Shown here piece after piece: positions 20,327-51,325 of a stretch of DNA of 64,000 nucleotides. The DNA lies in contig NZ_KB913035.1 in the NCBI RefSeq assembly GCF_000384255.1, forward strand, positions 2,371,093 to 2,435,092. Direction: 5' to 3'. The first letter of the stretch is position 1, and every line of letters starts with the position of its first letter. This stretch comes from Methylotenera mobilis 13 (GTDB lineage: Bacteria > Pseudomonadota > Gammaproteobacteria > Burkholderiales > Methylophilaceae). Made by a program: the position numbers and the translations under genes. Under the pieces are notes generated by a model. That model saw only the letters and a program-made list of their open reading frames with translations. It was not told where the DNA came from and searched no databases.

Positions 20327-21412
20327 CTAAGTAATTGAATTCACCCGCGTACCACCTTTTAGTACCACAACATCAAATCCATTTTGAACTAATATAAAGG
20401 CAGTAGCAGAACTACGTCGACCAGTTTGACAATAGACTACGTAATCTTTTTTACGGTCTAGTTCCGACATTTTTTGACGAACCTCATTTAATGGTAAGTT
20501 AATTGCACCATCGATATGGTCATACTGATACTCAGACGGCAATCTTGCATCCAACCAGATTGCGCCCTGAGCAATTCTAGCGTCAGCAATATCTCTTCTC
20601 ACCTGAGTTAACATTGGCTCTTTTAACAGCTCAACAAAATCATGTTTATTTAGCCTTAGTAGCTGGCCATCAGTTCTTGCAGTCACGGTAGCATTACGCT
20701 TATTATCAGAAACTAAAGCCTCCTCTCCAAACGCATCCCCAGCATGCAGTTCTGCAACTAACATAGAAGCCGCATTGATACCATCAGCTCTGCTGACTAG
20801 CAATGACCCATGCTCGACTAAGTAATAGTAATCACCCACTGCACCTTGCTGAATAATCACTTGGCCTGCAACAGTACTGATACGTTCCATCCGCTGAAAC
20901 ATCGCTTCTATATTAGCAACAGGCACTTTACTAAACACCCCAGATTGCAATTTTTCCACGCTAAACACGCTTATATCACGCATCCATTCAACCGGGGTTC
21001 TGTTGGGTTTTTTATCGCCTGATTTATGACGCAGATTTTTAAGGGCCTGTTCATCAGTAGACAATTGATCCCATGTCATCATGATATCTAACAGATCATT
21101 GTCTATTCTTAAAATTTCCACATCAGTCAGTGCGATGCTATCCACTAAGTTATCATCACAATTAATAGGATGTTTTGCCGCAGGGCCCTCTCCGCGCAAT
21201 AGTACTTTGCCATTTTTAGCGAACTTTAACTCTAGCTCACCTTTGATTAAATAGACAGCCTGTTTTGCATGCGTTACATTCATGCGCAGGGGATTAACAC
21301 CCTTGCTTACTTTTTCTACAAAACACAATTTAGCTAACTCCTGCTTACGTCCCTCGGAAAGCTTAGCAATAGGTTCAATCGTGTTTAATATGGTGAGTGC
21401 GGCTGTTGTCAT
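20327..21412 (-). CDS. Cyclic-nucleotide-binding/rhodanese fusion protein
   Basis: A 361-residue cytoplasmic protein. A degenerate N-terminal cupin-like cNMP domain (about 10-115) precedes a better-preserved cNMP-binding domain (about 155-270) with the phosphate-cassette pattern AFGEEALVSDNKRNATVTA, close to the FGE-x-A...R-x-A signature. The C-terminus is a rhodanese domain (about 280-361) with active-site loop CQTGRRSS (Cys328). No DNA-binding helix-turn-helix is visible, so it is not a CRP-type transcription factor. It is probably a cNMP-gated sulfurtransferase or a sensor whose partner is unknown. The gene immediately upstream on the same strand, 122 bases away, encodes a metallo-beta-lactamase-fold phosphodiesterase that may degrade the same messenger. 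Confidence 0.85.
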   Translation of the reverse strand: MTTAALTILNTIEPIAKLSEGRKQELAKLCFVEKVSKGVNPLRMNVTHAKQAVYLIKGELELKFAKNGKVLLRGEGPAAKHPINCDDNLVDSIALTDVEILRIDNDLLDIMMTWDQLSTDEQALKNLRHKSGDKKPNRTPVEWMRDISVFSVEKLQSGVFSKVPVANIEAMFQRMERISTVAGQVIIQQGAVGDYYYLVEHGSLLVSRADGINAASMLVAELHAGDAFGEEALVSDNKRNATVTARTDGQLLRLNKHDFVELLKEPMLTQVRRDIADARIAQGAIWLDARLPSEYQYDHIDGAINLPLNEVRQKMSELDRKKDYVVYCQTGRRSSATAFILVQNGFDVVVLKGGTRVNSIT

Positions 21413-21534
21413 GTTAAGCGTCAGTATCTAAATATAGTTAGGATGATATATCTTTTACACTAAGTGTCGTCATCTGGCATGACCATTTGTCAATCATGTT
21501 AGTTTTGATAGTGCTAGTAATTTTATTAATTAGA

Positions 21535-22317
21535 TTACAACTCAAAAATCTGATATCGATTTAGCGCTGATATGGACAAACCAATCTCTACATCAGCTAT
21601 TTCGCGCATGATGCATTCATCTTCGCCCGGCTTTAAGTGGGTAATATATACTTTAAGCTCGCTTGTAAAGTGAGCTTTATCTAATTTAGCTAATTCTTGC
21701 ATAAGCATTGAAGGGCATAGGTGCTTAGATAAAATTGCTAGCTCCAACTCACTATTGCTAAACGCTGTTTCCACAATCAAATACTTAAGCTGGCTTATCT
21801 TATTTATTTCGTGCCAAAGCGCATCACAAATCGTCGTATCGCCAGTATAAACCAAACTGTGAAACGCGCCTTTGATATGATAGCCAACAGCAGGCACCAC
21901 ATGATGCACAGGCAATGCGGTAATTTCTCGTTGACCAAGCACCATTTTCTGCCCCAGCATTATTTCTTGATAGCGTAAAAAAGGCATATCAAGATTAGGT
22001 ATGGCATTAAAATCTGGCCATATCTTCCAATTAAAGATATGTTCTTTAAGAATAGTCAGCGTTTCCCTAGTTGCATAGACGGTAATGGGTTCCGTACGAA
22101 TCCCCATTACCGTGTCAATTAACAGAGGAATGAACGCAATATGATCCAAGTGCGAGTGTGTCACAAATATGTGGCTAATTTTCAGCAATTCCTCCATGGA
22201 CAAATCACCCACACCGGAGCCGGCATCAATTAATACGTCTTGATCCAGCAACAGTGATGTTGTGCGGCAATCACCACCTATACCGCCACTACACCCTAGC
22301 ACTTTGAGTTGTGTCAT
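21535..22317 (-). CDS. Metallo-beta-lactamase-fold protein, class II cyclic-nucleotide phosphodiesterase-like
   Basis: A 260-residue soluble hydrolase. The dinuclear metal motif THSHLDH (His54, His56, Asp58, His59) is followed by IAFIPLLID, close to the class II 3',5'-cyclic-nucleotide phosphodiesterase signature HxHLDH. Further ligands are visible in PVHHVVPAVGYH, YTGDTTICD and a late YITHLKPGED. The N-terminus LGCSGGIGGDCRTTSLLLD is also typical. It presumably hydrolyses cAMP or a related cyclic nucleotide. An RNase Z-like activity is less likely given the HxHLDH form. It lies directly upstream of the cNMP-binding/rhodanese gene on the same strand and is divergent from the esterase gene. 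Confidence 0.82.
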   Translation of the reverse strand: MTQLKVLGCSGGIGGDCRTTSLLLDQDVLIDAGSGVGDLSMEELLKISHIFVTHSHLDHIAFIPLLIDTVMGIRTEPITVYATRETLTILKEHIFNWKIWPDFNAIPNLDMPFLRYQEIMLGQKMVLGQREITALPVHHVVPAVGYHIKGAFHSLVYTGDTTICDALWHEINKISQLKYLIVETAFSNSELELAILSKHLCPSMLMQELAKLDKAHFTSELKVYITHLKPGEDECIMREIADVEIGLSISALNRYQIFEL

Positions 22318-22413
22318 TTAGACATTCACCTTAATTAAACTATTATCATACTTACTCATCAATGAAAGCATATGCAGGCTGTTTTGAGTACAATGTCACG
22401 ATAATCAACACAA

Positions 22414-49995: not shown

Positions 49996-51325
49996 GAGGG
50001 TGTCCCGAATTTTGTGTAAACGTCGGTTGATTACTGCTGAGGCATCCTCTCTTCAAATTGAATAGTAAACCTATTTAAAGCAGGTTTCCAATCACGTAGT
50101 GGCATCGTCCATTTCTTGCTGATGTTTTGCAGCGCCAAGTAGAACAATTTCATCACAGCTTCATCATTTGGAAATGAACCACGGCTCTTCGTCACTTTAC
50201 GTAAACTCATATTCACCGATTCAATCGCATTGGTGGTGTAGATGATTTTGCGTATTTCTGGTGGGTAATCAAAGAACGGTATGATACGCGCCCAGTTGCT
50301 GCGCCAGGATTGTGCAATCGGTGGGTAGGCATCATCCCATCTTACTTCAAACTCAGACAGATATTGTTCTGCTTCATCAATCGTTGACGCGGTATAAACG
50401 CGCTTTAAATCAGCAGCCACAAGCTTACGCTTCTGCCAGCCCACGTAATTCAAGCTGTTACGCACCATATGCACAATACACAATTGAACCGTTGCCTTGG
50501 GATAGACAGTTTCGATCGCCTCAGGAAAGCCCTTTAGACCATCCACACAGGCAATGAAAATGTCCTGTACCCCTCGATTCTTGAGTTCAGTCACAACACT
50601 TAGCCAGAACTTGGCACCTTCGGTCTGGGCGATCCACAACCCCAATACTTCTTTCTCTCCCTGAATGTTGATGCCGATGGCAAGATAGACTGCCTTAGAC
50701 CTGACCGCACCGGTATCTCGTACTTTGGCATGGATGCAATCCAGATACACCACTGGGTAAATAGCATCCAATGGGCGAGACTGCCATTGCTTCACATCTT
50801 CAACCACAGCATCAGTGACCGATGAAATGAGCGTAGGTGACACTTCAGTGCCATACATTTCAGCCAAGTGGCCTTGAATCTCACGCACCGTCATGCCACG
50901 CGAGTACAGGGAGATGATCTTGTCATCAAAGCCTGTCCAGCGTGTTTGATGTTTAGGAATCAGTTGCGGTTCAAAACTGGCATCACGATCACGGGGAATC
51001 TCAATAGGCAATTCACCGAATTCACCCTTGAGCGTCTTACGGCTTTTACCGTTACGGGCATTGCCAGTGCCATTCATTACTGCTTCGTGTTTGTCATGGC
51101 CAAGGTGTTCAGCCATCTCAGCTTGCAGCGCACGTTCAACCAGTGCTTTGGTGAGTTGCTTGAGAAGACCATTCTCACCAATCAGGTCTTCTGGTTTTTT
51201 ATAGTTAGCTAATAAGCTATCAATTAGATCATTGGGTAATACTTTTGGTATCGTCATTTTTATTCCATTCCTGAAAATAGCAGTTTCCTGCAAAATGACG
51301 TTTACACAAAATTATTTACACCCCC
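49996..51325 (-). mobile_element. IS256-family insertion sequence, complete
   Basis: A 1330-bp element with imperfect 29-bp terminal inverted repeats (49996-50024 and 51297-51325; 24 of 29 positions match, the inner 17 identical). It contains a single intact transposase gene on the minus strand and is flanked by an 8-bp direct duplication. The transposase reads towards the small hypothetical gene. The copy looks complete and recent. Confidence 0.95.
50031..51257 (-). CDS. IS256-family transposase
   Basis: A DDE transposase of the mutator type, about 408 residues. Catalytic residues are readable as Asp in YLDCIHAK, Asp in ACVDGLKGF and Glu in TNAIESVNMSLRK, with the family C-x2-H in QLCIVHMVRNS between them. 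The N-terminal part (LLKQLTKALVERALQAEMAEHLG) is typical. I start at the ATG at 51257 (MTIPKVLPNDL), which has AGGAATGGA upstream. An in-frame ATG at 51293 adds 12 residues inside the terminal repeat region. The frame is intact. Confidence 0.94.
   Translation of the reverse strand: MTIPKVLPNDLIDSLLANYKKPEDLIGENGLLKQLTKALVERALQAEMAEHLGHDKHEAVMNGTGNARNGKSRKTLKGEFGELPIEIPRDRDASFEPQLIPKHQTRWTGFDDKIISLYSRGMTVREIQGHLAEMYGTEVSPTLISSVTDAVVEDVKQWQSRPLDAIYPVVYLDCIHAKVRDTGAVRSKAVYLAIGINIQGEKEVLGLWIAQTEGAKFWLSVVTELKNRGVQDIFIACVDGLKGFPEAIETVYPKATVQLCIVHMVRNSLNYVGWQKRKLVAADLKRVYTASTIDEAEQYLSEFEVRWDDAYPPIAQSWRSNWARIIPFFDYPPEIRKIIYTTNAIESVNMSLRKVTKSRGSFPNDEAVMKLFYLALQNISKKWTMPLRDWKPALNRFTIQFEERMPQQ

Follow-up and report, generated by a model that had tools for sequence, protein, structure and literature searches.

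A cyclic-nucleotide-binding/rhodanese fusion gene and a PDE1-like gene in Methylotenera mobilis 13 are a fragment of a multi-messenger Burkholderiales operon

A 64,000-nucleotide stretch of the Methylotenera mobilis 13 genome (contig NZ_KB913035.1, positions 2,371,093 to 2,435,092; hereafter the window) carries two neighboring genes that raise the question of whether a cyclic nucleotide can control sulfur chemistry. One gene encodes a fusion of tandem cyclic nucleoside monophosphate (cNMP)-binding folds with a rhodanese domain (cNR), and the other encodes a protein of the metallo-beta-lactamase (MBL) fold that resembles the yeast phosphodiesterase PDE1. A preliminary description had proposed a circuit in which a cyclic nucleotide gates persulfide transfer by the fusion protein and is removed by its neighbor. 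Our analysis partly supports this proposal: sensing and signal removal are likely, and that cAMP gates sulfur transfer is our inference. The two genes are a fragment of a larger multi-messenger operon, and we see an even chance that they are what is left of an old cyclic-nucleotide operon of the Burkholderiales, namely its off-switch and its receptor-effector, with a gated rhodanese as the output.

Both genes are real and intact, and the two-gene pair was confirmed as reported: ORF coordinates and strand place the MBL gene upstream of cNR on the same strand, with 122 bp between them. The survey of the family covered 187 Methylophilaceae genomes, including drafts, some only ~71% complete, with genes at contig ends counted as absent. 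Matches to cNR (P0001) were found in 68 of these genomes and matches to the MBL protein (P0002) in 76. In all 58 genomes with both, the MBL gene was directly upstream of cNR and co-directional, at a median distance between matches of 64 nt (range 11–868); these pairs take in two broken cNR genes (G143 and G051), one in-frame stop in the MBL match (G040), and matches cut at contig ends. Ten genomes had a cNR match without MBL: G032 is cut at a contig end, G041–G044 have the N-terminal domain only, G115 is broken, G181 has a rhodanese-only match, G099 and G100 have lost a pocket residue (G099 also reads as two frames), and G171 has its cNR beside a cyclase remnant. The flanks were syntenic, with folE2-dxs-ispA-xseB-esterase on one side and pilin, START-like, beta-propeller, rppH, and ilvC genes on the other (named by eye, the esterase and pilin by Pfam).

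A class III cyclase gene (PF00211) was directly upstream of the MBL gene in 33 of the 76 family genomes with MBL, including 26 of the 58 pair genomes, and it lies between the esterase and MBL genes in, for example, L033, L034, and L043. Pfam scans found its CHASE2 domain in L043 (the only family member scanned), L063, and L177; at the other loci it was assigned by tblastn similarity. Any PF00211 cyclase was present in 57 of the 58 pair genomes versus 35 of the 129 other family genomes. The preliminary description contained neither this signal-making cyclase, absent from the window locus and just upstream in many relatives, nor the pocketless N-terminal cNMP-like fold of cNR described below.

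In a sample of 190 genomes of the order, cNR was found in 19 and the pair was adjacent in 12 of these, two of them inside the family. The other ten (L177–L186), which are all of the cNR-bearing pair loci outside the family, showed the order cyclase, MBL, cNR, GAF/MshEN/T2SE ATPase, and GAF/HD-GYP in 10/10 cases, with the L178 cyclase cut at a contig end. In the eight with contigs long enough, a CHASE2 protein, a Ser/Thr kinase, PP2C, and FHA precede the CHASE2-cyclase, giving an operon of nine genes in which the MBL protein is the phosphodiesterase. The loci examined were those of all 17 order-sample cNR genomes outside the family and of the class genomes G391 and G285, and operon domains were assigned by Pfam on L063 and L177 (L062 is the same stretch as L177). 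No description of the nine-gene operon was found in the open-licence literature, most subscription papers being outside the search.

The operon also occurs without cNR. At 20 cNR-less MBL loci of the order (L197–L216, taken from the higher-scoring matches), a T2SE ATPase gene lay within 350 bp of the MBL gene in 19 and at 3 kb in one, and a cyclase gene was directly upstream in 15. The MBL gene therefore belongs to the operon core, with cNR as an addition. In a midpoint-rooted tree, 57 operon-lineage cNR sequences fell on one side of a branch with 100/99 support and 32 others on the opposite side, which fits a single entry of cNR into the operon; sequences were labeled as operon-lineage by their locus, the MBL-less L055 and L157 among them, and L194, L186, L192, and L109 have long branches. 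It is possible, and we put it forward only tentatively, that a sulfurtransferase gated by a cyclic mononucleotide entered, perhaps in a single event, an operon in which Ser/Thr phosphorylation (kinase, PP2C, FHA), a cAMP cyclase with its phosphodiesterase, and components of c-di-GMP signaling (MshEN, HD-GYP) were already grouped around an ATPase of the pilus/secretion type, with Methylotenera carrying a stripped-down two-gene form. If so, persulfide chemistry would be an output of second-messenger signaling. Across L177–L216, where Ser/Thr phosphorylation, cAMP, and c-di-GMP parts accompany the GAF/MshEN T2SE ATPase, a pilin-like gene then follows in many loci.

ORF and PF00211 searches revealed no local cyclase gene beside the window pair. 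Other operon genes persist elsewhere in the family: the FHA gene was found in 73 of the 187 genomes (53 of the 58 pair genomes vs 20 of the 129 others). Among eight FHA loci examined (L227–L234), four carried CHASE2-kinase-PP2C-FHA-HD-GYP as a second locus (G185, G107, G034, and G050), three, including that of the window genome, carried PP2C-FHA-HD-GYP, and one carried FHA-HD-GYP. Since these loci are separate from the pair, the ancestral operon first broke apart and was later trimmed. At least five of the nine operon genes persist in the window genome (PP2C, FHA, HD-GYP, MBL, and cNR); the window also encodes two T2SE ATPases, which share only 34–37% identity with the operon GAF-ATPase and match it without its GAF part. 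The genome has one strong PF00211 cyclase, a 414-aa class III protein encoded at G000:C1:2104297. Read by eye under what we take to be the substrate rule (Lys with Thr or Asp for ATP), both this protein and the CHASE2 enzyme would be adenylate cyclases. A transposase-like ORF (L006, 170–991; read by eye) adjoins the 414-aa cyclase gene.

The missing cyclase at the window locus, together with broken or partial cNR genes (G143, G051, G115, and L071) and broken cyclases (L049 and L059) in relatives, could mean that the locus is decaying and that the pair is a non-functional leftover after loss of the cyclase, kinase, and ATPase there. Against this, comparisons with kin that also lack a local cyclase gave ratios of nonsynonymous to synonymous substitution (dN/dS) of 0.07–0.09 for the window cNR (computable in 4/7 comparisons) and 0.04–0.10 for the window MBL gene (5/7), dS being saturated in the remaining three and two, and the motifs of both proteins are intact. 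The pair is under purifying selection, which largely refutes the pure-leftover explanation and leaves it very improbable. The cNMP domain had the lowest dN of the three cNR domains in 6/7 comparisons; in the exception, G114, the N-terminal domain (0.056) was slightly below it (0.060), and in the G120 comparison the linker had a lower dN than the cNMP domain.

Domain analysis of cNR revealed a cNMP-binding domain (PF00027, 72.4 bits vs a gathering threshold of 27.5) with the Gly-Glu...Arg-x-Ala cassette, followed by a rhodanese domain (PF00581, 62.6 vs 22.2 bits) whose Cys sits in a six-residue loop; the loop length was taken from the sequence, and six residues is what we assume to be the rhodanese rule. 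The motifs given in the preliminary description, FGEEAL...RNATVTA for the second cNMP pocket and CQTGRRSS for the rhodanese loop, as well as THSHLDH for the MBL protein, were all present as quoted. The residues C328, G331, R332, R333, and S334 were invariant in 37/37 aligned rows; in a wider alignment, a few distant rows (L099, L105, L127, and L128) vary within the Cys loop. The best fold match of the rhodanese part was the rhodanese domain of a persulfide reductase (3nt6_A, Z 16.3, 95 residues, 1.8 Å). The second cNMP domain is likely to bind a cyclic nucleotide, and the rhodanese domain probably performs sulfur transfer.

The pocket was strongly conserved in the wider cNR alignment, which includes more distant and duplicate rows: Glu230 and Arg239 were kept wherever readable except in G099/G100, the second copies of L066 and L069, and the broken L071. 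G099 and G100 replace Arg239 with Ser while keeping CQTGRRS, and neither has an MBL gene or a detected PF00211 cyclase, as one would predict for a pocket that is tied to the signal. In the tandem cNR duplicates (L066, 2359–3432; L069, 7088–8134), both second copies carry Ala in place of the pocket Glu.

Upstream of the cNMP domain, the AlphaFold model of cNR (pLDDT 82.5, pTM 0.59) contained a further many-stranded cNMP-like domain at about residues 1–130, for which Pfam gave no second cNMP stretch and in which no pocket motif was visible by eye. Its LDIMMTWDQ helix occurs in variant forms in more distant rows of the wider alignment. Four relatives (G041–G044; L150–L153) have, in the syntenic position, a short ORF for this N-terminal domain alone, in which LDIMMTWDQ is altered except for TWDQ; the domain may have a function independent of the rest of cNR.

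This architecture also suits the main rival explanation, in which cNR responds to cNMP as a scaffold or regulator, much as a kinase regulatory subunit does. Its rhodanese would then sense redox state or persulfide or serve as a dock, and a partner protein, in the ancestral operon the GAF/MshEN/T2SE ATPase, would provide the output. The top Foldseek rows for whole cNR were the tandem CNB parts of PKG/PKA, although at a query TM-score of only ~0.3; the T2SE ATPase gene immediately follows cNR at all ten of the order loci described above; and the LDIMMTWDQ helix is among the most conserved cNR stretches, in a domain that four relatives keep alone. However, the loop Cys is invariant and is retained in both genomes that lack the pocket Arg, the N-domain-only relatives have changed that very helix, and no mapped family locus has a GAF-ATPase adjoining cNR; the cNR of G144 has beside it only a T2SE gene 37% identical over the ATPase part. 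We consider a scaffold role rather unlikely.

The MBL protein scored 54.1 bits with PDEase_II (PF02112; gathering cut-off 23.7) and 63.6 bits with Lactamase_B_2 (E 2.4e-17). Its closest PDB entry by sequence was yeast PDE1 (4ojv; phmmer 1.6e-7, profile 2.6e-11), which was also the first Foldseek match of its AlphaFold model (pLDDT 92.1). The candidate metal ligands H54, H56, D58, H59, H139, D160, and H227 were invariant in 34/34 aligned rows. The protein shares with class II phosphodiesterases the MBL fold, the HxHxDH site, and the HxFNxxIWPD and HLxP stretches; it differs from yeast PDE1 in length (260 aa vs 369 residues in the PDE1 entry) and scored far short of the NCBIfam equivalog for cyclic nucleotide-degrading phosphodiesterases (35.7 vs 400). 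The likeness to class II enzymes noted in the preliminary description held for the PDEase_II match, the HxHxDH motif, and the greater closeness to PDE1 than to RNase Z in sequence and, slightly, in fold. It did not hold for the class II signature, which we take to require Gly or Ser third after the last His and Ser-Pro later: the MBL protein has Phe62 and Ile67-Asp68 where PDE1 has Gly and Ser-Pro, and we therefore term it PDE1-like and not a class II enzyme. As a further comparison for class II cyclic nucleotide phosphodiesterases, Apyc1 was considered (excerpt of PMC9117128).

Structural alignment with VIA-align gave Z 25.6 for PDE1 (2.5 Å, 254 residues), tied within 1 with 1zkp (24.7), and 24.5 for RNase Z and YhfI; the fold alone therefore leaves the substrate undecided. 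This tie is one reason to consider a different phosphodiester substrate for the MBL protein (RNase Z-like or PhnP/YhfI-like activity), in which case its linkage to cNR would merely reflect the old operon. Further points in that direction are the lack of a cyclase beside MBL in 5/20 order loci, its usual position next to ffh elsewhere in the class, and the RNase Z-model search of the genome, in which the best match was the MBL protein itself (44.5 bits, none reaching 292.95), so that no other RNase Z is evident. Conversely, the protein passed the PDEase_II cut-off and failed that of the RNase Z equivalog (TIGR02651, 59.2 vs the NCBIfam cut-off of 292.95), PDE1 ranked first by sequence and by Foldseek, the MBL gene follows a cyclase directly in 33 of its 76 family genomes, and it was unmatched in 111/187 family genomes, unlike a housekeeping RNase. 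Such a different substrate is unlikely on balance, and the MBL protein quite probably hydrolyses a cyclic nucleotide as an off-switch.

Under the favored explanation, a cyclic mononucleotide would serve as the signal. Most likely it is cAMP, and its source would be the neighboring CHASE2 class III cyclase in many relatives and, in the window genome, presumably the class III cyclase still encoded there. The nucleotide would bind the second cNMP domain of cNR and rearrange the tandem cNMP folds, which would alter rhodanese activity or partner access; the rhodanese would move sulfane sulfur (persulfide) through Cys328 to a putative acceptor, and hydrolysis by the PDE1-like protein would end the signal. 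For the gating step itself, the arguments in favor and against seem to us about equally strong.

Several observations weigh against this explanation. The placement of the cNR domains in the model is of low confidence, as its pTM indicates. The Fisher tests of co-occurrence are uncorrected for shared ancestry and genome reduction. MBL was found in 114 of the 190 order genomes but cNR in only 19, and the cyclase is also missing at a quarter of the cNR-less MBL loci examined, which implies that the MBL protein has a role without cNR. The Arg239 loss represents one lineage (two genomes of the same genus, 81 and 92% complete). G144 has the pair and an intact pocket although it lacks a PF00211 cyclase, the only cyclase class searched for, G171 has lost MBL and most of the adjoining cyclase yet kept the pocket, and cNR is broken in 2/58 pairs.

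The class-wide survey points the same way. Among 323 genomes, cNR-like matches were found in 151, MBL in 119, and both in 97 (Fisher odds ratio 12, without correction for ancestry). Positions were compared for 114 cNR rows and 99 MBL rows, a selection from the matches listed that was drawn mostly from genomes with both. Of the 82 genomes shared by these rows, 2 had the two genes <5 kb apart, and at both of these loci (L195 and L196) they were divergent. The partner was absent from 20/20 cNR-centred and 20/20 MBL-centred class loci, chosen as top-scoring matches and not at random, with L109, L118, and L127 on short contigs. Clustering placed lone cNR near aroE in 11/20 loci and lone MBL near ffh in 17/20, each identity being checked by Pfam in one locus. 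A few loci retained operon-like neighbors: cNR by CHASE2-like, kinase, PP2C, and FHA genes (L125), MBL by a T2SE ATPase (L129), and MBL by cyclase, kinase, PP2C, and FHA genes (L130). Across the class, the cNR and MBL families thus mostly live apart, and the adjacency that the preliminary description had suggested surveying is a feature of the family and of 12/19 cNR genomes of the order. A lack of conserved adjacency in related genomes, which that description had named as grounds for refuting its proposal, was thus not observed.

Compared with known systems, the pair is a variant of cyclase-phosphodiesterase-receptor circuits with an unusual effector. Most of the known receptors of cAMP in bacteria belong to the transcription factors, the channels, or a small number of enzymes. 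With Crp/Fnr regulators cNR has the cNMP-binding domain in common (CRP model 29.3 bits vs 266); as the preliminary description had noted, it differs in the DNA-binding part, no such domain being among its Pfam matches at E up to 0.1, with the rhodanese forming the C-terminus. A Crp/Fnr-type regulator was accordingly rejected. Like PKA/PKG regulatory domains, cNR has two cNMP-binding folds in a row with a standard phosphate-binding cassette in one; unlike them, it has no cassette in the first domain, a fused rhodanese, and no kinase domain. It shares fold and Cys loop with single-domain rhodaneses and with persulfide reductase and persulfide dioxygenase fusions, in which the rhodanese partner is a sulfur-metabolism enzyme and not a cNMP sensor. 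Membership in encapsulin family 2B was also rejected, with no capsid domain matched in cNR and an NCBIfam encap_f2b score of 35.6 bits against 400. According to the excerpt of PMC8346489, these encapsulins provide another cNMP-sulfur link: family 2B shell proteins contain a cNMP domain, part of families 2A and 2B have cysteine desulfurase cargo, and rhodaneses are enriched in cysteine desulfurase operons.

No description of a cNMP-rhodanese fusion was found in the open-licence literature searched, which leaves out most subscription papers, and where PMC5554334 and PMC12604733 mention rhodanese and cNMP, these terms refer to differently numbered genes; the domain pair is probably already listed in annotation databases. 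A sulfurtransferase under cyclic nucleotide control would link second messengers to persulfide signaling, and the conserved cyclase-phosphodiesterase-receptor order offers a ready gene set for testing. The coordinates of the features are summarized in Table 1.

Table 1. Features of the gene pair and of the separate FHA locus (window positions unless a genome coordinate is given)
Feature	Position	Strand	Remarks
cNR gene, tandem cNMP-binding-fold/rhodanese fusion (P0001, 361 aa)	20327-21412	-	Intact ORF, 361 codons
Rhodanese domain of cNR	20348-20584	-	Pfam PF00581, residues 277-355, E 5.2e-17
Candidate catalytic Cys328 in CQTGRR loop of cNR	20429-20431	-	C328 invariant in 37/37 rows
Second cNMP-binding domain of cNR	20621-20869	-	Pfam PF00027, residues 182-264, E 3e-20
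Phosphate-binding cassette FGEEAL...RNATV of cNR	20684-20731	-	Glu230 and Arg239 kept in most readable rows
LDIMMTWDQ helix, N-terminal domain of cNR	21065-21091	-	D109, I110, M112, T113, W114, D115, and Q116 invariant in 37/37 rows; no assigned role
PDE1-like MBL-fold protein gene (P0002, 260 aa)	21535-22317	-	Intact ORF, 260 codons
FNWKIWPDF of MBL protein, common to yeast PDE1 (FNDLIWPDL)	22009-22035	-	F95, N96, W97, W100, and P101 invariant in 34/34 rows
Metal-binding motif H54-S-H-L-D-H59 of MBL protein	22141-22158	-	H54, H56, D58, and H59 invariant in 34/34 rows
96-bp gap, MBL gene to esterase gene	22318-22413	.	Site of the CHASE2 cyclase gene in relatives, absent here
PP2C-FHA-HD-GYP of window genome	G000:C1:2496220-2499544		~103 kb from the pair

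A scan for sigma-70-like promoters gave 12 matches versus 8.1 (sd 3.3) in shuffled sequences and carried no information on a separate cNR promoter. A plasmid-borne module was considered as an origin of the pair and rejected, no match being found in the plasmid collection at E 1e-40. The same genome encodes a second cNMP fusion without a DNA-binding domain (G000:C1:1757737-1760214; L169 1–2478, with its 5' end outside the locus), which combines a pyridine nucleotide reductase with two cNMP-binding domains and 4Fe-4S domains. Elsewhere in the window, a transposase-like ORF (50031–51293, minus strand; read by eye) lies between adk-like and leuS-like genes.

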